Shown: positions 6,940 to 35,140 of the stretch, one piece after another | Position numbering within the stretch: position 1 is the first letter of the stretch | How the letters are laid out: every line of letters begins with the position of its first letter | NCBI GenBank assembly: GCA_913009635.1 | Contig: CAJVXI010000009.1 | Coordinates: 1 to 36,547, forward strand | DNA: 36,547 nt | Reading direction: 5' to 3' | Source: an uncultured bacterium | GTDB taxonomy: Bacteria > Patescibacteriota > Minisyncoccia > UBA6257 > UBA9933 | Position numbers and translations under genes: made by a program | The notes under the pieces: model-generated | Seen by the model: only the letters and a program-made list of their open reading frames with translations | Databases searched by the model: none | Told to the model about the DNA's origin: nothing

Positions 6940-7575
6940 TCACGGTTGATATATTATTTGTCTCACGACTTTTACTTCTTTTCCCAGTAATTTTTTAATT
7001 TTAAATTCAATAGTATTAACGCCGGGTTGAAGAAAAATTTCTTTTTCAAATTTATTATCGTCATTAATAAAAATTTCTTCATTATTAATTGTTAATTTAT
7101 TTTGTTTATCAGTTTCACCGCTTAATGTTAAATTCTGTTCGTTTACAATAATTGTGGGAAAAGCTGGATTGGTAATTTCAATTTTAGGACTTCCTAATAA
7201 ATTGCTACCTTGCCAAGCTAAATAAATTATAACTAAAATCGCGAAAAATCCAAAAGTAAAAACTCTTTTTTTAAGGGGCTTTATTAAAAAGCGGTTGGAT
7301 GGGAGCTTATCATTTGCTCCAGAAGTTGTAATATTTTCATTTTTAAAAGTTTGCCAAAGCATTTCTCCGTCAATTTTTAAAATTTCAGCGATTTTCATTA
7401 AATAGCCGCGCACATAGGGAGTTGCGGGTAATTTTTTAAAATCAGCGTCATAAAGAGCCGTTAAATACATTTTTGGTATATCGGTGAGTTCTGCTAATTT
7501 TTCAATATTCAAACCGCGAATCTCCAGCGCTTCATGAAAAATTTCTGTTATATTTTTTGGAATATTATCAGTCAT
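6940..7575 (-). CDS. RodZ-like helix-turn-helix membrane protein
   Basis: N-terminal HTH (FHEALEIRGLNIEKLAELTDIPKMYLTALYDADFKKLPATPYVRGYLMKIAEIL), one TM helix, extracellular beta-rich domain. Confidence 0.75.
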   Translation of the reverse strand: MTDNIPKNITEIFHEALEIRGLNIEKLAELTDIPKMYLTALYDADFKKLPATPYVRGYLMKIAEILKIDGEMLWQTFKNENITTSGANDKLPSNRFLIKPLKKRVFTFGFFAILVIIYLAWQGSNLLGSPKIEITNPAFPTIIVNEQNLTLSGETDKQNKLTINNEEIFINDDNKFEKEIFLQPGVNTIEFKIKKLLGKEVKVVRQIIYQP

Positions 7576-10192: not shown

Positions 10193-10268
10193 AATTTGTT
10201 TTTAAAACAAAGGTCGAGAAAAACAATTCAAATTAAAAATTAAATTATTAACAATTAAAATTAACTAT

Positions 10269-16737: not shown

Positions 16738-16761
16738 ATTTTTGTGATATAATTTGTGATA

Positions 16762-17190
16762 ATGAATTCTAAAATTTTTCGCGCCTATGATATTCGCGGC
16801 AAATATCCGAGCGAGATAAATGAAAAAGCTGTCGAGAAAATAATTGAAGGACTGGCAAAGAGTTTTTTTAAGCCCGGGAAAGTTATCGTTGGTCACGATG
16901 CCCGGTTAAGCTCGCCAGAACTTTATCGCGCGGCGATAAAACAACTTAAAACTAAAAACTTAAAACTTAAAACTATTCCAGTCGGGATGATTACAACGCC
17001 AATGCTTTCTTTTTTGGTGAATAAGCTAAAAGCGGATGGCGGGATAATGATTACTGCTTCGCATAATCCAAAAGAATATAATGGGCTTAAGATAGTTGGC
17101 GCTAAAGCAGTACCTGTGAGCGGTAAGGAGATACTGTTTAAAATGCAAAATGTAAAAATCAAAAATCAAAATGACAAATCAAAATGTTAA
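16762..17190 (+). CDS. Phosphomannomutase/phosphoglucomutase, N-terminal part of a split gene
   Basis: FRAYDIRGKYPSEI, GHDARLSSPELYRAA, active-site serine loop TASHNPKEYNGLKIVG; ends in repeat-derived MQNVKIKNQNDKSKC*. Confidence 0.85.
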   Translation: MNSKIFRAYDIRGKYPSEINEKAVEKIIEGLAKSFFKPGKVIVGHDARLSSPELYRAAIKQLKTKNLKLKTIPVGMITTPMLSFLVNKLKADGGIMITASHNPKEYNGLKIVGAKAVPVSGKEILFKMQNVKIKNQNDKSKC

Positions 17191-17274: not shown

Positions 17275-18342
17275 ATGAATTACATAACAATCTACATAAA
17301 TTTTCTTAAGAAATTTATAAATCCACGGCGTAAATTAAAAGTAATTTTTGACTGTTCCAACGGTACAGCCGGATCAATTGTTCGTCAATTAAAAATTAAA
17401 AATTTAAAATTGAAAATTATTAACGGAAGGCCCGATGGAAACTTTCCGGCTCATGGGCCGAATCCATTAAAAACTGGAGCAACAGAACAGCTCCAGAAAG
17501 AAGTTAAAAAGAATAAATCTGACTTAGGAGTGATTTTTGACGCTGATGGCGACAGAGCATTTTTTATTGACAATCGCGGCCGCTTTGTTGACCCGGATAT
17601 AATTGCTAGATTATTAATTTGGCATTTAAAACCAAAAAAAGTAGTTATTGATGTTCGTACCGGCTGGCTTGTTAGGCGTGGAATAATGAATAATGAATTA
17701 GGAATTAAGAATAAAAATAAAAAAACCATAATTCATAATTCCAGATTCATACTTCTTGAAAGTAAGGTGGGGCATTATTTTATTAAAAAATTAATGAAGC
17801 AAAAAAAGGCGGATTTTGGAGCAGAGCGTTCAGGACATTATTATTTTGCCTCGCAAATTCTTGGCAATGGATGGCCGCTTGGTTCAGGAATTTTAGCGGC
17901 TATTGAAATAATCAACGCTGTTTCCGAATTACCATATAATTTAGCTGATTTTGTTGATTTGCTGCCGCAGTATTATCGCTTTCAACGGACTTATACTGAC
18001 CAGACACAGACTTATACAGAAAATAACACGGAGCGATCTATAAGAATAAAAAAATTATTAAAGAAGATAGAAATGGAGCTAAAAGCTAAAAGCTACCCGC
18101 CCGCAACGCTTTCGCGTAGCGATGGCGGGCGCGGTAAGCTAAAAGCTCGCGTCTCTCGTCTTGACGGATTAACAATGGAGTTCAAGGATGGCTTTGCCAG
18201 CCGTAGCTTTGGCGAAGGCTGGTGGTTCAATATTCGCCTTTCAAATACAGAGCCGTTAATGCGTTTAAGCGCGGAGGCAAATAATAGGAAAGTTTTACAA
18301 AGAGTTGTTAAAAAATTGACAGCGTTGATCAAAAAGATGTAA
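17275..18342 (+). CDS. Phosphomannomutase/phosphoglucomutase, C-terminal part of a split gene (same frame)
   Basis: IFDCSNGTAGSI, GVIFDADGDRAFFID, FGAERSGHYYF, WFNIRLSNTEPLMRLSAEA; several repeat-derived insertions. Confidence 0.85.
   Translation: MNYITIYINFLKKFINPRRKLKVIFDCSNGTAGSIVRQLKIKNLKLKIINGRPDGNFPAHGPNPLKTGATEQLQKEVKKNKSDLGVIFDADGDRAFFIDNRGRFVDPDIIARLLIWHLKPKKVVIDVRTGWLVRRGIMNNELGIKNKNKKTIIHNSRFILLESKVGHYFIKKLMKQKKADFGAERSGHYYFASQILGNGWPLGSGILAAIEIINAVSELPYNLADFVDLLPQYYRFQRTYTDQTQTYTENNTERSIRIKKLLKKIEMELKAKSYPPATLSRSDGGRGKLKARVSRLDGLTMEFKDGFASRSFGEGWWFNIRLSNTEPLMRLSAEANNRKVLQRVVKKLTALIKKM
17681..17756. repeat. In-frame inverted heptad pair inside the phosphomannomutase ORF
   Basis: GAATAAT GAATAAT GAATTAG GAATTAA GAATAAA ... 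CATAATT CATAATT CCAGATT CATACTT; encodes GIMNNELGIKNKNKKTIIHNSRFILLE. Confidence 0.75.
17987..18035. repeat. TQTNTD-type coding repeat, left arm only
   Basis: CGGACTTATACTGACCAGACACAGACTTATACAGA encoding RTYTDQTQTYTENN; matches arms in recG and leuS. Confidence 0.7.
18078..18150. repeat. GCTAAAA heptads flanking a GC-rich hairpin, in frame inside the phosphomannomutase ORF
   Basis: GCTAAAAGCTAAAAGCTAC-CCGCCCGC...GCGGGCGCGG-TAAGCTAAAAGCT encoding ELKAKSYPPATLSRSDGGRGKLKAR. Confidence 0.7.
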
Positions 18343-21399: not shown

Positions 21400-22041
21400 A
21401 TGCTTGCTAAGGCGTATCAGATTTTAATTTATTGGCCTATTTTTCTTACATTAAAATTGTGCGCTGATTTTAAAGTTGAAGGGCAAGAAAATCTTAAGGG
21501 ATTAGAAAAAAAACCGGTTATTTTTGTGGCTGGTCCGCATGCTTCATTTATAGATGGACAGATTTTCGCGGCTGCCATGCCTAGACAGGGCTTTAGTCCC
21601 ATAGATTTTTTTCCGGTTCGTTTCTTGGTAATTGATAGATTTTTTAAATGGAAATATCTTTTTATACCGATTTTTTTATTTTTAGCAGGCACAATTAAAG
21701 TAATAAAAAGTGGCGGTGATTTAGAAAAAGCATTAACAGAAGTTTTAAAAGTTCTTAAAACATCTCCGGCAAAAATTTGTATTTTTCCGGAAGGCAGATT
21801 AAATCGTGAAGACGGCAAACTTCAATTAGGTAAACGAGGCACTGCTTATTTGTTTCAGAAAACTGGAGCAGTAGTTATACCGGCTGCGTTTATTGGTAAT
21901 TTTAAAATTCTTTCATTTAAAAGTTTATTTAGAACAAAAAAGTTAAAAGTAATTTTAGGCAAACCAATATATTCTTTATCAGGCACGTTAGAACAGATGA
22001 CTGACCAAATAATGGAGGAAATCGCTAAGTTGATTGATTAA
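21400..22041 (+). CDS. 1-acyl-sn-glycerol-3-phosphate acyltransferase (PlsC-like)
   Basis: GPHASFIDGQIFAAAM (HxxxxD), IFPEGRLNREDGKLQLGKRGTAYLFQKTGAVVIPAAF. Confidence 0.88.
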   Translation: MLAKAYQILIYWPIFLTLKLCADFKVEGQENLKGLEKKPVIFVAGPHASFIDGQIFAAAMPRQGFSPIDFFPVRFLVIDRFFKWKYLFIPIFLFLAGTIKVIKSGGDLEKALTEVLKVLKTSPAKICIFPEGRLNREDGKLQLGKRGTAYLFQKTGAVVIPAAFIGNFKILSFKSLFRTKKLKVILGKPIYSLSGTLEQMTDQIMEEIAKLID

Positions 22042-22054
22042 TAATTAGGTGGTA

Positions 22055-22154
22055 TTGACAAAATTATTTATAGTAGTATAATTATGTCATACTCTAAAAG
22101 TATATATTTATTAACAATTAGGTGTATTGACGAGATTATTTATAATAGTATAAT
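22055..22154 (+). promoter_or_regulatory. Two tandem duplicated sigma70-type promoters
   Basis: TTGACA(22055)-16-TATAAT(22077) and TTGACG(22127)-16-TATAAT(22149), embedded in a shared ATTAGGTG(G)TATTGACRARATTATTTATARTAGTATAATTA block. Confidence 0.75.
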
Positions 22155-22173
22155 TACAATATAATCTAAGTAT

Positions 22174-22256
22174 AAGGAAATTGCGTCTTTGACGTTGATT
22201 TCCTGAGGGAGTATAATTCGCCCTTTAAAAATCTTAATAAGAAAAGGAGAAAAGGT
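22174..22256 (+). ncRNA. Structured 5' leader RNA, copy 1
   Basis: GGAAAT..CGTC-TTT-GACG..ATTTCC stem-loop, then CCCTTTAAAAATCTTAATAAGAAAAGGAG (SD-pairing hairpin); homologous to 22862-22944. Confidence 0.6.
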
Positions 22257-22700
22257 ATGAAGAGATTGCATATACTGCTTATAGTTTCGTTGATCGTAAT
22301 TGCAATCGTCATAATTCCAGTGCTTTGTTTGGCTGGCGGCGCGGCTCCACTTGGACCTCCGACAGTAGAAAAAGCGATTATGACAATCATAACGGCGCAG
22401 GAAAAGATACACAAGATTGGAGGACTTTCACCTGGCTCGTTTATAACGACAACGGCCAGTGGTACCACTTTATTTGATTACGATCAGACCAGGACCGCGG
22501 TACGACAAATACCCGTTGGATTAAAAAGCATCAATAGAAGTATAATTTATATTGGAAAAACGTATGACACCGGCGTCTCTGTCATGACAGCAGCATATTT
22601 AATGAGATATGACAGCGCTGCTAAGTATGTTGCTTTTGCGGAAACTTTATGCCCCGGAGATCACTCCTACGTCCTTGTGGCCACAATCGGATACGGTTAA
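22257..22700 (+). CDS. Small secreted/membrane protein of unknown function
   Basis: AAAAGGAG SD, signal peptide MKRLHILLIVSLIVIAIVIIPVLCLAGG, followed by a terminator. Confidence 0.65.
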   Translation: MKRLHILLIVSLIVIAIVIIPVLCLAGGAAPLGPPTVEKAIMTIITAQEKIHKIGGLSPGSFITTTASGTTLFDYDQTRTAVRQIPVGLKSINRSIIYIGKTYDTGVSVMTAAYLMRYDSAAKYVAFAETLCPGDHSYVLVATIGYG

Positions 22701-22754
22701 CGGCAGATCGCGATGAACATTGTTTAGATTGATCCTGAAAAGGTGAATATCGGC

Positions 22755-22788
22755 AAGGGGCTGAACTTTTAAAGTTCAGCCCCTTTTT
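22755..22788 (+). terminator. Rho-independent terminator
   Basis: AAGGGGCTGAACTTTTAAAGTTCAGCCCCTTTTT. Confidence 0.9.
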
Positions 22789-22861
22789 AATTTTTAAATA
22801 AAGTTATTAACAATTAAAGTATTTATAAATTTTTTAATTATTGTAAAATTAAATTAACTAA

Positions 22862-22944
22862 CAGAGAATCACGTCTTAGACGGTTATTCTCTGAGCTGAG
22901 CAGTTAGTCCTTTAAAATCTTTATCAGGAAAGGGGGTGAAATTC
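22862..22944 (+). ncRNA. Structured 5' leader RNA, copy 2
   Basis: AGAGAAT..CGTC-TTA-GACG..ATTCTCT stem-loop, then GTCCTTTAAAATCTTTATCAGGAAAGGGGGTG. Confidence 0.6.
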
Positions 22945-23031
22945 ATGAGAAAGCATATTTGTTGTTTTCACGACAAGGACCAAAAAAAGAAAATGACGCA
23001 TACTGCCAAGGCGATGACAGAGGGCTGGTAA
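22945..23031 (+). CDS. 28-aa small ORF MRKHICCFHDKDQKKKMTHTAKAMTEGW
   Basis: Strong SD (AAAGGGGGTGA), structured leader, terminator directly downstream; too short for the ORF track. Confidence 0.5.
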   Translation: MRKHICCFHDKDQKKKMTHTAKAMTEGW

Positions 23032-23044
23032 CAAAGAGCTTATT

Positions 23045-23076
23045 AAGGGGCGTGATCTCAGGATCCGCCCCTTTTT
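23045..23076 (+). terminator. Rho-independent terminator
   Basis: AAGGGGCGtGATCtcagGATCCGCCCCTTTTT. Confidence 0.85.
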
Positions 23077-23113: not shown

Positions 23114-25759
23114 ATGACAATATTTAAACTCCAGGATTCAATTGAAGAGATAAAAGGCGTTGGTCAAAAATTTCTTCCAAAATTAAAAAAACTGGAAATT
23201 AAAATTATTAAAGATTTACTTTGGCATTTTCCGTTTCGCTACGATGATTTTTCCAAGATTTCCAAAATTGCCGATGTGAAAATCAACGAACCGGTTGTTA
23301 TTCAGGCAATTGTTAAAGAAATAAAAATACACCGCACATGGAAACGAAGAATGATTATAGTAGATGCGCTGATTGGAGATAATACAGGTAATATTGGCGT
23401 AGTTTGGTTTAATCAACCTTTCATTTTAAATGTTCTTAAAAAAGGGACAATGGCTAATTTTGCCGGTAAAACTGTTGTTTCTAAAAATAAAATTTATCTT
23501 TCTAATCCTGTTTATGAAGTCATCTACACACAGACTAATACGGACTATACACAGACCGATACAGAAGATGGTCAGTATGAGTCCGCGCTAAGTCCGTATG
23601 AGTCTGAGTCTTTAAAGCATACGGGGCGTCTTGTGCCGGTTTATCCGGAAACCAGAGGATTAACTTCAAAGGCCATTAGATTTTTAATTAAGCCGGTTTT
23701 GGATAATTTAGAAAAATTACCTGAATTGCTGCCAAAAGAAGTTATAAAAGAAAATAAATTTTTGGAAATTAATCAGGCAATTCGTTATATTCATTTTCCT
23801 GAAAATTTTCAACAAGCCCAGGACGCTAAAAAAAGATTTGCTTTTGAAGATTTATTTTTGCTTCAACTTAATAATATAAAACAGCGTCTTAGCTTGTCGC
23901 GAGAAAAATCCTTTTCTTTTAAGGTTGATATTGATTATTTAAAAGAGCTTATTAGTCATCTTCCTTTTGAATTAACTAAGGCGCAGAAAAAAACACTTTG
24001 GGAAATTTTGCAAGATTTTCAAAAATCGTACCCAATGAATCGTTTATTGCAGGGAGATGTTGGTTCTGGGAAAACAATTGTTGCTGGATTGGCCGCGTTG
24101 ATGATTAGTAAGTCCTCCAGATTCGTTCTAGGCAAACAAAGCGCTTTTATGGCGCCAACTGAAATATTGGCGCAGCAGCATTATAAAACTTTTTTAAAGT
24201 TTTTTCCTGATTTTAAGGGAGGTATTGGATTGATTACTTCTGGAGAAGCAAGAATTTTTTATGGAGATGGATTAGAGGCCAAAGCAAAGAAAAACGAGTT
24301 AGTTAAAAAAATTATTAGCGGAGAAATAAAGATTATTATCGGCACTCACGCTCTTATTCAGAAAAGCGTTGATTTTCTAGATTTGGCTTTTGTTGTTGTT
24401 GATGAACAGCATAGATTTGGCATTTCTCAGCGAGCCAAGCTCGCTGCGCAGACTAATATAGACTATACACGAACTTATACTGAAGAAAATAACAGTAAGG
24501 ATTCTGAATTATTGTATGGGGATTTAACATATAAAATAAGAGGAGCTATTTTTAGCGTAAAAAAACAATTAGGGCTTGGTCATAAAGAAAGTATCTATCA
24601 GAAAGCGTTGGAAGAAGAATTTAAAAAATTGAAATTATCTTTTGAAAAAGAAAAATCAATAAGTATTACATATAGTGGGAAAAAGATAGGAATTTATAGG
24701 CCCGATTTTATTGTTGAGGATAAAATTATTTTAGAGATAAAAGCACTTCCATTTATTGGAAGATTTGAAAAAAATCAAATTTGGCATTATTTAAAAGGTT
24801 CAAATTATGAGTTGGCGTTATTGGTTAATTTTGGAAGAGATGATATTGATATAAAAAGATTTATTTATAATGACGGTCTGTATAAGTCTGTGTCAAGTCC
24901 GTATAAGTCAGTGAATATGCCGCATTTTTTATCAATGTCAGCAACGCCGATTCCACGCACCCTTTCTTTAACTGTTTTTGGCGATCTTGATTTATCAATT
25001 ATTGACGAGCTTCCAAAAGGAAGAAAAGAAATTATTACTAAAATCGTGGCGCCTGCTAATCGTAATAAGGCATATCAATTTCTTCGAGACCAAATTAGAA
25101 AGGGTCGGCAAGTGTTTGTAATTTGTCCCCGAATTGATCCATCGGAAATGAATACCAATCCGTTTATTCCGGATGTACGGGCAGTAAAAGAAGAATATGA
25201 AAAACTTTCCAAGAAAATTTTTCCAGATCTTAACGTGGCAATACTGCATGGCAAAATTAAATCAAAAGAAAAAGCTGAAACAATGAAGCAATTTAATAAT
25301 GGAGCAATTGATATTCTGGTTTCAACTTCAGTTGTTGAGGTTGGCGTTGACGTGCCTAATGCGTCAATAATGCTTATTGAAGGAAGCGAGAGATTTGGTT
25401 TGGCGCAGCTTTATCAATTTCGAGGTAGAGTTGGTAGAGGAGAATATCAGTCATTTTGTTTTTTATTTACTGATTCTTCTTCAAAAGCTACTCATCAACG
25501 ATTGCGTTCTTTGATTGACGCGAAAAATGGTTTTGAATTAGCAGAGAAAGATTTAGCTATTAGGGGTCCCGGTCAGATTTTAGGAGCCGATCAAACGGGT
25601 GTGCCTGATTTGGCAATGAAAGCCATTCAAAATCCGGAATTAATAAAATCCGCTCGTCAATCAGCAGAATTAATTATTAAAAAAGATTCAGAATTAAAAA
25701 ATCATCCATTTCTTAAAAGCCGCTTGGAAAATTTTCAAAAAGAGATACATTTGGAATAA
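23114..25759 (+). CDS. recG: ATP-dependent DNA helicase RecG with an internal GxxExxY domain and repeat-derived insertions
   Basis: NRLLQGDVGSGKTIVAGLAALM, VVVDEQHRFGISQRAKL, HFLSMSATPIPRTLSLTVFGDLDLSIIDELPKGRKEI, GRVGRGEYQSFCFLF, FELAEKDLAIRGPGQILGADQTG; interrupted in frame by a GxxExxY domain. Confidence 0.96.
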   Translation: MTIFKLQDSIEEIKGVGQKFLPKLKKLEIKIIKDLLWHFPFRYDDFSKISKIADVKINEPVVIQAIVKEIKIHRTWKRRMIIVDALIGDNTGNIGVVWFNQPFILNVLKKGTMANFAGKTVVSKNKIYLSNPVYEVIYTQTNTDYTQTDTEDGQYESALSPYESESLKHTGRLVPVYPETRGLTSKAIRFLIKPVLDNLEKLPELLPKEVIKENKFLEINQAIRYIHFPENFQQAQDAKKRFAFEDLFLLQLNNIKQRLSLSREKSFSFKVDIDYLKELISHLPFELTKAQKKTLWEILQDFQKSYPMNRLLQGDVGSGKTIVAGLAALMISKSSRFVLGKQSAFMAPTEILAQQHYKTFLKFFPDFKGGIGLITSGEARIFYGDGLEAKAKKNELVKKIISGEIKIIIGTHALIQKSVDFLDLAFVVVDEQHRFGISQRAKLAAQTNIDYTRTYTEENNSKDSELLYGDLTYKIRGAIFSVKKQLGLGHKESIYQKALEEEFKKLKLSFEKEKSISITYSGKKIGIYRPDFIVEDKIILEIKALPFIGRFEKNQIWHYLKGSNYELALLVNFGRDDIDIKRFIYNDGLYKSVSSPYKSVNMPHFLSMSATPIPRTLSLTVFGDLDLSIIDELPKGRKEIITKIVAPANRNKAYQFLRDQIRKGRQVFVICPRIDPSEMNTNPFIPDVRAVKEEYEKLSKKIFPDLNVAILHGKIKSKEKAETMKQFNNGAIDILVSTSVVEVGVDVPNASIMLIEGSERFGLAQLYQFRGRVGRGEYQSFCFLFTDSSSKATHQRLRSLIDAKNGFELAEKDLAIRGPGQILGADQTGVPDLAMKAIQNPELIKSARQSAELIIKKDSELKNHPFLKSRLENFQKEIHLE
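23526..23610. repeat. TQTNTD-type coding palindromic element 1 in recG
   Basis: Arm ACAGACTAATACGGACTATACACAGACCGATACAGA; right arm GTCAGTATGAGTCCGCGCTAAGTCCGTATGAGTCTGAGTC is its imperfect reverse complement. Encodes TQTNTDYTQTDTEDGQYESALSPYESES. Confidence 0.82.
24449..24918 (+). mobile_element. Candidate in-frame element: heptad/21-bp-period inverted arms flanking a GxxExxY (PD-(D/E)XK-like) domain inside recG
   Basis: Left arm CAGACTAATATAGACTATACACGAACTTATACTGA (24449-); right arm GTCTGTATAAGTCTGTGTCAAGTCCGTATAAGTCAGTG (to 24918); cargo ELLYGDLTYKIRGAIFSVKKQLGLGHKESIYQKALEEEF...YRPDFIVEDKIILEIKAL...LLVNFGRDDIDIKRFIYND (24506-24874). Confidence 0.75.
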
Positions 25760-31907: not shown

Positions 31908-32447
31908 ATGAGACACATCAATTTTAAAAAATTAATCCTTGTTTTGGGGATTATTATTGTTTTAAACCTTTTTATAAATTACGGAGTGGCGACTTTTTAC
32001 GATGCGCCTGAATACGAAAATTTTTGCCCTAAAGAACTAACAGCTAAAAAACATAACACAAAAGAGGAGTGTGAAACAGCTGGCGGATTTTGGTCAGAAA
32101 ATTACGTATATCCTCGTACTGAAATACAAGTTCCAAAAGAAGAAGTAGAAGAAGGTTGGTGTGACGTATATCATTCTTGTCAGAAAGTATTTGATGAAGC
32201 GCGTGATTTTTATAATAGAAACGTATTTATAATTCTAATTACGGCGGGCATTATTTCAATTGTTATTGGATTTTTGATTATTCAAGCGGAAGCGGTCTCG
32301 CTCGGTCTTTCTTTCGGCGGCTTGCTTTCTTTGATTATCGGCACTATTAGATATTGGTCGGCAATGAATGATTACTTGCGGTTCATAATTTTAGGAATCG
32401 CTCTCATAATTCTTATTTGGATAGGAATAAAGAAAATAAAGGATTAA
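31908..32447 (+). CDS. Membrane protein of unknown function, Cys-containing extracellular loop
   Basis: N-terminal TM, FCPKELTAKKHNTKEECETAGGFW loop, C-terminal TM helices; TAATG overlap with leuS. Confidence 0.65.
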   Translation: MRHINFKKLILVLGIIIVLNLFINYGVATFYDAPEYENFCPKELTAKKHNTKEECETAGGFWSENYVYPRTEIQVPKEEVEEGWCDVYHSCQKVFDEARDFYNRNVFIILITAGIISIVIGFLIIQAEAVSLGLSFGGLLSLIIGTIRYWSAMNDYLRFIILGIALIILIWIGIKKIKD

Positions 32448-35140
32448 TGGAAAAGTATAATTTTAAAAAAATCGAACAAAAATGGCAAAAGTATTGGGAA
32501 AAGAATAATTTTTATCGGGCGCAGGATTTTTCAAAAAAGCCAAAATATTATTGCTTAATAGAATTTCCTTATCCTTCGGCAGAGGGTTTGCATGTTGGGC
32601 ATACTAGAAGTTACACGGCAATGGATATAATTGCTCGTAAGCGCCGAATGCAAGGATACAATGTGCTTAATCCCATTGGTTGGGATGCTTTTGGTTTGCC
32701 TACTGAAAATTACGCCATTAAAACCGGCATTCATCCGAAAGTTGTTACTAAAAAGAATACTGATAATTATAGGCGTCAGTTAAAATCACTCGGTTTTTCT
32801 TTTGACTGGAGCAGGGAAATAAATACTACTGATCCGGAGTACTATAAATGGACTCAGTGGATATTTTTACAGCTTTATAAAAAGGGTTTGGCTTATAAAA
32901 AGAAAATGCCAATTAATTGGTGTTTGTCTTGCAAGACAGGGCTTGCGAATGAAGAAGTTATTGACGGTAAATGTGAGCGATGCGGAGGAGAAACAGAAAA
33001 AAGAGAAAAAGAACAATGGATGCTGGCTATAACCAAGTACGCGGACAGGCTTCTTAAGGATTTAGACAATATTGATTATTTAGAAAAAATTAAAGTTCAG
33101 CAGACGAATTGGATAGGGAAATCAGAAGGAGCTACTATAAAATTTCAAATCATAAATTCCAAATCACAAATAAATTCCAAATCCAAAATTTCAAATTCCA
33201 AACAATTCATTGAGGTTTTCACAACAAGAGTTGATACTATTTTTGGCTGTACGTATCTTGTTGTTGCGCCGGAACACATAATAATTAAGAATTTAGAATC
33301 TAGAATTAAGAATTTAGGGGAAGTCGAGAAATACATTAACCAAGCGAAGAAAAAGTCGGATTTACAAAGAACAGAATTAGTAAAAGAGAAAACCGGCGTG
33401 GAGTTAAAAGGCGTCAAAGCAATCAATCCTTTTAATAATGAAGAAGTGCCGATTTTTGTGGCAGATTATGTTTTGGCAAGTTATGGTACTGGCGCGGTAA
33501 TGGCGGTTCCGGCTCATGATGAACGCGATTTTGAGTTTGCCAAGAAATTTAATTTACTAATAGAAGCAGTTGTTATGCCGATAACGAAAGGTCCTACAAA
33601 AATATATTCACAGCCGCCGGATGAAAAGTTGCATAAAATAGTAAAACAAGATTTAAAAGCGGAAAAATGGTTTGATGGAATAGAAAAAGGTGAAATTTGT
33701 TATCCGGATGATGGATATTTAAAAAAATCAGGACAATTTACCGGTTTGACTTCTGAAAAAGCCCGACAAGAAATGACAAAATGGCTTGAGAAGAGTAAAT
33801 TAGGTAAGAAAACAACACAATACAAGCTTCGTGATTGGATTTTTTCCAGACAGCATTATTGGGGGGAACCCATTCCCATCATTTACTGTCGTAAATGCTT
33901 GGAAAAATCAAAAATCAAAAATCAAAAATCAAAATTTGATTATGATTACATTGAAATTGATGGCTTAGAATATATGGTGATTCCAGTAGCGGAAAAGGAT
34001 TTACCAGTTGAATTGCCGGAAGTTAAAAAATATGAGCCGACTGATACCGGCGAATCGCCTTTAGCCAATATAAAGGATTGGGTTAATGTTAAGTGTCCGA
34101 AATGCAAAGGCCAGGCAAAAAGAGAAACAGACACAATGCCTAATTGGGCAGGTTCAAGTTGGTATTACCTCGCATATCTTATGCGAGGAATTTCTAATTT
34201 CAAATTCCCAATTTCTAAATACAAAAAAGTATTTAAATATTGGACTCCGGTGGATTGGTATAATGGCGGAATGGAGCATACCACTCTTCATCTTTTATAT
34301 TCTCGTTTTTGGAATAAGTTTCTTTATGATATTAAAGTTGTTCCAACAAGCGAGCCATACAAAAAACGAACTTCTCATGGAATGATTTTGGGCGAGGACG
34401 GAGAAAAAATGTCTAAATCAAGAGGTAATGTTGTTAATCCGGACGATGTAGTTGTTAATTTTGGCGTGGATGCTTTTCGTTTATACCAAATGTTTATAGG
34501 CCCTTTTGAGCAGGCGACTCCTTGGGATCCTCGTGGTATAGAAGGAACAAAACGTTTTCTTGGAAAAATTTGGGATATTCAAAATAGAATTATGAGTCAT
34601 GAATCAGGAAGTATGAATAAAAAAATTGAATCGCTTTTACATAAGACCATTAAAAAGGTTGGGGATGATATTGAAGAAATGGGATTTAACACTGCTGTTT
34701 CAAGCTTAATGATTTTTATTAATAAGTGTTATGAATGTGATGATGTGCCAAAGAATATTTGGGAAAAGTTTTTAATTATCCTTTCACCGTTTGCGCCGCA
34801 TATAGCTGAAGAACTTTGGGAGCAACTACGCAGACAAACGCAGACAGCTACGCAGACAAACGCAGACAGTCCGCGTAAGTCCGCGTCAAGTCAGTATGGG
34901 TCTGTGTCATTGGAGCAGTGGCCCAAATACAATCCAAAACTAATTATTGAAGATATTTTTGAATTAGTTATTCAGATTAATGGTAGGGTTCGTGACATAA
35001 TTTCAGTTAAAAAAGACATTTCCCAAAAAGAAGCCGAGAGTATTGCTTTATCTCAGGAAAAGATTAAAAATTGGCTCAAGGGCAATAAAGTAAAAAAAGT
35101 AATTTTCGTACCCAATCGGCTAATAAATATCACAATTTAA
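32447..35140 (+). CDS. leuS: Leucyl-tRNA synthetase with multiple repeat-derived insertions
   Basis: FPYPSAEGLHVGHTRSYTAMDIIAR, NPIGWDAFGLPTENYAI, TTRVDTIFGCTYLVVAPEH, GEKMSKSRGNVVNPD. ORF opens at 32417; ATG 32447 preferred. Confidence 0.96.
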   Translation: MEKYNFKKIEQKWQKYWEKNNFYRAQDFSKKPKYYCLIEFPYPSAEGLHVGHTRSYTAMDIIARKRRMQGYNVLNPIGWDAFGLPTENYAIKTGIHPKVVTKKNTDNYRRQLKSLGFSFDWSREINTTDPEYYKWTQWIFLQLYKKGLAYKKKMPINWCLSCKTGLANEEVIDGKCERCGGETEKREKEQWMLAITKYADRLLKDLDNIDYLEKIKVQQTNWIGKSEGATIKFQIINSKSQINSKSKISNSKQFIEVFTTRVDTIFGCTYLVVAPEHIIIKNLESRIKNLGEVEKYINQAKKKSDLQRTELVKEKTGVELKGVKAINPFNNEEVPIFVADYVLASYGTGAVMAVPAHDERDFEFAKKFNLLIEAVVMPITKGPTKIYSQPPDEKLHKIVKQDLKAEKWFDGIEKGEICYPDDGYLKKSGQFTGLTSEKARQEMTKWLEKSKLGKKTTQYKLRDWIFSRQHYWGEPIPIIYCRKCLEKSKIKNQKSKFDYDYIEIDGLEYMVIPVAEKDLPVELPEVKKYEPTDTGESPLANIKDWVNVKCPKCKGQAKRETDTMPNWAGSSWYYLAYLMRGISNFKFPISKYKKVFKYWTPVDWYNGGMEHTTLHLLYSRFWNKFLYDIKVVPTSEPYKKRTSHGMILGEDGEKMSKSRGNVVNPDDVVVNFGVDAFRLYQMFIGPFEQATPWDPRGIEGTKRFLGKIWDIQNRIMSHESGSMNKKIESLLHKTIKKVGDDIEEMGFNTAVSSLMIFINKCYECDDVPKNIWEKFLIILSPFAPHIAEELWEQLRRQTQTATQTNADSPRKSASSQYGSVSLEQWPKYNPKLIIEDIFELVIQINGRVRDIISVKKDISQKEAESIALSQEKIKNWLKGNKVKKVIFVPNRLINITI
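33139..33207. repeat. In-frame heptad array in the leuS editing-domain entry (coding copy of a MITE arm)
   Basis: CATAAATTCCAAATCACAAATAAATTCCAAATCC... resembles the left arm of 28737-28870; encodes IINSKSQINSKSKISNSK. Confidence 0.75.
34827..34918. repeat. TQTNTD-type coding palindromic element in leuS
   Basis: ACGCAGACAAACGCAGACAGCTACGCAGACAAACGCAGACA / GTCCGCGTAAGTCCGCGTCAAGTCAGTATGGGTCTGTGTC; encodes TQTATQTNADSPRKSASSQYGSVS. Confidence 0.8.

Follow-up and report, generated by a model that had tools for sequence, protein, structure and literature searches.

What kind of element precedes the two short genes upstream of recG in this genome of an uncultured bacterium of the Patescibacteriota? 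The original prediction took the paired leaders to be either a new cis-regulatory RNA, such as a riboswitch or translational switch, or a duplicated small-RNA unit whose ORF has diverged. The window examined is the whole 36,547-nt stretch of contig CAJVXI010000009.1, and the features of the locus are collected in Table 1. On balance, the best explanation is probably a duplicated expression cassette, whose 5'-terminal hairpin would stabilise or insulate the mRNA of small orphan genes.

Table 1. Features of the two promoter-leader units, in window coordinates.
Feature	Position	Strand	Remarks
Promoter copy P0, upstream	22033..22097	+	Tandem copy of P1; TTGACA-16-TATAAT at 22055-22082
Promoter P1, unit 1	22106..22169	+	TTGACG-16-TATAAT at 22127-22154; predicted transcript start ~22161
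Leader 1 5' hairpin	22175..22204	+	13 pairs, UUU loop; z -4.8
CTGAG box, leader 1	22203..22207	+	Identical in both leaders
CCTTTAAAA box, leader 1	22222..22230	+	Identical in both leaders
Shine-Dalgarno AAGGAG, ORF1	22244..22249	+	7 nt before ATG
ORF1	22257..22700	+	147 aa; N-terminal hydrophobic helix (signal/anchor); orphan
Unit 1 intrinsic terminator	22755..22785	+	Followed by T-run; z -6.1
Promoter P2, unit 2	22798..22860	+	Diverged P1 copy; TTTATA-16-TAAAAT at 22822-22849
Leader 2 5' hairpin	22862..22893	+	UUA loop; two pairs compensated relative to leader 1; z -4.3
CTGAG box, leader 2	22891..22895	+	Identical in both leaders
CCTTTAAAA box, leader 2	22909..22917	+	Pairing with Shine-Dalgarno region possible
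Shine-Dalgarno AAGGGGG, ORF2	22930..22936	+	8 nt before ATG
ORF2	22945..23031	+	28 aa, MRKHICCFHDKDQKKKMTHTAKAMTEGW; putative coding
Unit 2 intrinsic terminator	23045..23076	+	z -4.9; ends 38 nt before recG

Duplication of the promoter and leader

The two leaders, at 22174-22256 and 22862-22944, match the original prediction in sequence and coordinates. Their alignment scores 28.5, compared with 8.7 +/- 1.4 for shuffled sequences, and the alignment of promoter plus leader scores 48, compared with 13.7 +/- 1.9 for dinucleotide shuffles. The homologous stretch of about 163 nt starts in an AT-rich promoter, spans the hairpin, the CTGAG box, the CCTTTAAAA box and the Shine-Dalgarno sequence and reaches the first codons, where the local alignment finds GCATAT common to both ORFs. 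Homology begins about 60 nt 5' of the leader as first delimited, and the promoter is thus included. Past the first codons, the units share no homology, and alignment of the two ORF proteins gives p = 0.64 against shuffles. The claim of two homologous structured leaders before unrelated short genes is confirmed, and homology over the promoter and UTR with none in the ORFs is the pattern of a duplicated promoter/leader cassette. Judged from the sequence, a block of promoter and 5' UTR of about 160 nt has been copied into an adjacent position and would drive two short, unrelated, taxon-restricted units. The alternative proposal of a duplicated small-RNA unit with a diverged ORF holds in part, as a duplication of promoter and 5' UTR.

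Conservation within the leader is uneven. The top of the hairpin, CGTCTTNGACG, is conserved as had been claimed, at 10/11 positions, and the CTGAG and CCTTTAAAA boxes agree at 5/5 and 9/9, while the linker between the boxes agrees at only 4/14. Two sigma-70-like promoters lie 5' of leader 1, with consensus matches of 12/12 and 11/12. Unit 2 has a weakly matching promoter (9/12), and the transcript starts are predictions from the promoter consensus. In addition, a sigma-70-like promoter lies inside leader 1, overlapping the hairpin (TTGACG-17-TATAAT, 22189-22217, 11/12), and its -10 element is absent from leader 2.

As predicted, a strong terminator closes each unit. The two terminators share AAGGGGC...GCCCCTTTTTA, with a similarity score of 16, but about 2% of other stretches in the window are as similar, so this likeness need not be homology.

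A further short sequence, TTATTAACAATTA, has all three of its exact genomic copies in this window (10245-10257, 22108-22120 and 22804-22816), one of them directly 5' of the gene for an exported-looking protein of 318 aa. As a candidate regulon box it was rejected, with 18 relaxed matches in the genome compared with 22 for the control.

Structure of the 5' hairpin

Folded alone, the hairpins reach -12.6 kcal/mol in leader 1 and -13.7 kcal/mol in leader 2, and 0/200 shuffles are as good. In the alignment of the two leaders, both copies form 12 of the 13 stem pairs as standard pairs, and leader 2 cannot form the remaining one. Double compensatory changes occur at columns 4-29 and 5-28 (G-C to A-U and A-U to G-C), and one further pair is changed on one side only. 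The original prediction that the lower stem varies in sequence while keeping its pairing is therefore borne out. When the partner strand is slid by 1-3 columns, pairing falls from 97% to 47-58%. Moreover, when the seven stem substitutions are placed randomly, 3.1% of trials yield two or more compensatory pairs, and 0.6% preserve at least 12 of the 13 pairs. Because of this register control and the rarity of compensation under random substitution, the hairpin looks conserved as a stem, which is modest evidence from a single pair of copies.

Proposed pairing with the Shine-Dalgarno sequence

It had also been proposed that CCUUU pairs with the AAAGG of the Shine-Dalgarno sequence. Both leaders could form these pairs, which are predicted to be populated in leader 2 only. 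Specifically, the ensemble prediction for leader 2 pairs CCUUU with the Shine-Dalgarno region at 0.54 + 0.24 in two registers, whereas in leader 1 this pairing reaches about 0.09 and a GAGGG-CCCUU helix (~0.8), for which leader 2 has no partner, dominates. The 3' halves of the leaders fold no better than shuffles (z +0.3 for leader 1 and +0.9 for leader 2). Between the leaders, the CCUUU-AAAGG pairs show either no change or a change in one partner, which gives them no covariation support. The arrangement CCTTTAAAA...AAAGG is found twice in the window where 0.05 would be expected; among relatives, CCTTTAAAA-N8-20-AAAGG is not enriched over a reversed-pattern control.

The only two copies differ in pairing strength and in the competing fold, so they conserve no common two-state switch. 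A riboswitch would call for two mutually exclusive conserved folds gating the ribosome-binding site or a terminator, and the competing helix occurs in leader 1 only. It would also call for a conserved aptamer covarying across lineages, and here there are two sister copies. With sequestration of the Shine-Dalgarno sequence not shared, no aptamer-like junction and no convincing homologs in the collections searched, the proposal of a new riboswitch or translational switch is not supported. Of the papers covered, a single one (PMC11665869) brings Patescibacteria and riboswitches together, and it does so only in terms of proposed engineering tools.

Search for homologs

Only these two copies are present in the source genome (713 kb, 98% complete), which contains no other dyad-CTGAG motif. 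A CPR/Patescibacteria-like lineage would suit its size and gene content. Across 245 genomes of the order, covariance model R2 recovered its own copies and one match (L112, E 0.003 per genome), and across 384 genomes of the phylum it recovered only its own copies at E <= 0.005. A class sample of about 385 genomes yielded no convincing leader homolog. Nothing in the region passed the Rfam gathering cut-off; the sub-threshold matches are mostly terminator-like, and tRNAs are found elsewhere in the window. Phage DNA contained no leader, nor did plasmid DNA, where the search returned only a weak 46-nt match to the AT-rich promoter region. Additionally, the regions upstream of recG in 22 relatives contain neither plsC nor the leader.

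Other candidates were examined and rejected. An exact-pattern scan of GTDB r220 gave 12 matches, none before a start codon and most within long open frames, and one of IMG/VR gave matches without the leader architecture. Of the latter, L050 lies within an opposite-strand gene, and L047 falls in the ribosome-binding stretch of a podovirus-like contig and does not match the covariance model. At this site (7490-7525, minus strand), CCTTTAAAATGTCTTTATTAGGAAAGG abuts a gene start and resembles the ribosome-binding part of leader 2 but lacks the hairpin. Matches of an earlier covariance model, R1, in relatives at E 0.002-0.5 are mostly inside protein genes or lack the leader context.

The best outside match, L112 1501-1580, comes from a genome of a different family within the order (G028). 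It is a noncoding hairpin followed by GTTAGCTCCTTAAAAAATTTATAAGGAAAG, scores 31.9 bits with R2 and aligns to leader 2 with a local score of 23 over a background of 9.4 +/- 1.7. No start codon or ORF closely follows its AAGGAAAG, and as the best of hundreds of genomes it has an E times genomes searched of about 0.7. A three-sequence model that includes it (R3) produced new matches of 33-39 bits, one in a cysS-like gene and another oriented against the genes on either side of it, and these positions place 33-39 bits at the level of noise. The resemblance of L112 to leader 2 is probably chance, and it is not counted as a homolog. Thus, no convincing further homolog emerged in any collection searched, the outcome that the original prediction had named as refuting it, and the covariation amounts to two base pairs in two sister copies. 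Two such copies can mimic a covarying RNA family even though no wider family is detectable.

The reading frames and neighbouring genes

An open frame as long as ORF1 has a probability of 1e-4 by chance, and its codon score is the best of the six frames. Its G+C content is 0.44 overall and 0.41 at third positions, where the other genes of the window have 0.21-0.39. No relatives of ORF1 were found in 40 related genomes, PHROGs, NCBIfam, PDB, IMG/VR, phages or plasmids, and Pfam gave a spurious membrane-helix match and nothing else. Modelled alone by AlphaFold, the protein has an N-terminal helix with a pLDDT of about 90 and is of low confidence beyond it (pLDDT 56.5). For ORF2, 13% of shuffles contain a chance open frame of the same length, and the codon score is -0.25. 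By these measures ORF2 is indistinguishable from a chance open frame, although its Shine-Dalgarno sequence and ATG are placed as in ORF1.

The adjacent recG (23114-25759) encodes an in-frame PDDEXK_3 (GxxExxY) nuclease domain at residues 470-582, between the helicase domains. This domain is flanked by TNIDYTRTYTE.../...YKSVSSPYKSV peptides, and a similar flank-like peptide without the nuclease occurs at residues ~139-166. The insert has the look of a mobile element that entered a housekeeping gene without breaking its frame. Similar peptide inserts (QTQTYTENN..., TQTATQTNADSPRKSASSQYGSVS and TDHTQTNTENFRISPRSVSVNPR) are present in a phosphoglucomutase-like gene (17275-18342), a leucyl-tRNA synthetase-like gene (32417-35140) and a gene on another contig (L007, ~1400-1500), and they may possibly represent a palindromic-element family within coding genes. 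The phosphoglucomutase/phosphomannomutase-like protein is seemingly split between ORFs at 16756-17190 and 17275-18342, possibly by a frameshift or insertion.

Interpretation of the locus

Bacterial mRNA can be stabilised by a hairpin at or near its 5' end, and terminator hairpins guard 3' ends (PMC3997798; PMC7509114). In each unit a stable hairpin is present, and its nearness to the 5' end hinges on the predicted promoters, which would start the mRNA about 5-15 nt from the 13-pair hairpin. There, it would most likely act as a 5'-terminal stabiliser or insulator that blocks 5'-end-dependent decay, leaving an AU-rich ribosome-entry stretch and the Shine-Dalgarno sequence open behind it. The CTGAG and CCTTTAAAA boxes may then be a ribosome-entry or RNA-binding sequence rather than a ligand-sensing switch. 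Three observations count against a stabiliser. The promoter of unit 2, on which its predicted transcript start depends, matches the consensus weakly, a transcript from the promoter inside leader 1 would be without the hairpin, and the identity of the boxes beside a diverged linker could reflect sequence-specific recognition, which plain stabilisation does not need.

Such recognition is central to an unlikely alternative, a cis-regulatory RNA (protein-binding leader or translational switch) in which a factor reads the hairpin plus CTGAG, and CCUUU-AAAGG pairing shuts the ribosome-binding site until released. The near-invariant boxes, the two compensatory stem pairs, the pairing predicted in leader 2 and the repeated CCTTTAAAA...AAAGG arrangement all speak for it. 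However, in leader 1 that pairing loses to a helix without counterpart in leader 2, the 3' half has no folding advantage over shuffles, and neither more copies in the genome nor convincing homologs outside it were found. A narrower version is something of a long shot: a lineage-restricted element composed of the hairpin, CTGAG and CCUUUAAAA, which with a dedicated factor would control a few orphan genes and whose duplication brought a new ORF next to recG into expression. L112 1501-1580 is a possible distant relative of such an element. The inverted repeat could also be a DNA operator, on which a repressor just 3' of the promoter would co-regulate both units. The dyad does lie directly downstream of the promoter in both copies, and its near-invariant centre is itself a dyad. 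This reading is nevertheless quite improbable; changes in the outer arms compensate each other, as expected from pairing and not from a fixed operator sequence, and the dyad-CTGAG motif has no other copy in the genome.

Two further alternatives concern the ORFs. Unit 2 might be a truncated copy of unit 1 in a decayed tandem gene duplication, with the ORF deleted save for the first codons. This is doubtful; the alignment does reach the shared GCATAT and the terminators have sequence in common, but no alignment extends through the bodies of the ORFs, and other stretches of the window match the terminator likeness. It is very unlikely that both units are small regulatory RNAs with incidental ORFs, at least the 28-codon one. 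Unit 2 would then be an RNA of about 220 nt, bounded by a 5' hairpin and a terminator, and its 27-codon open frame and poor codon score would fit. Against this, a well-spaced Shine-Dalgarno sequence and ATG stand at the same place in both units, and the ORF1 frame is improbable by chance and outscores all five others in codon usage.

Comparison with known systems

Translational riboswitches and RNA thermometers resemble these leaders in having an upstream element, here CCUUU, able to pair with AAAGG at the Shine-Dalgarno sequence. In contrast to those systems, these leaders lack an aptamer or junction, a common competing fold, an Rfam match and convincing homologs, and the pairing is weak in leader 1. 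In the ompA 5' UTR of E. coli and in Bacillus, 5'-terminal stabilising hairpins lie near the mRNA start and precede a ribosome-binding stretch with little structure, an arrangement also predicted for these leaders. The copies described here differ in sharing sequence boxes besides the structure. As in local duplication and recruitment of a promoter and 5' UTR by another ORF, homologous 5' regions here precede unrelated coding parts that are adjacent and co-oriented, although no relative was found with the empty or pre-duplication state. Within a reduced genome, the locus is a clean local case of an unrelated ORF acquiring a copied promoter and mRNA leader, and such copying is one way for new small genes to become expressed.
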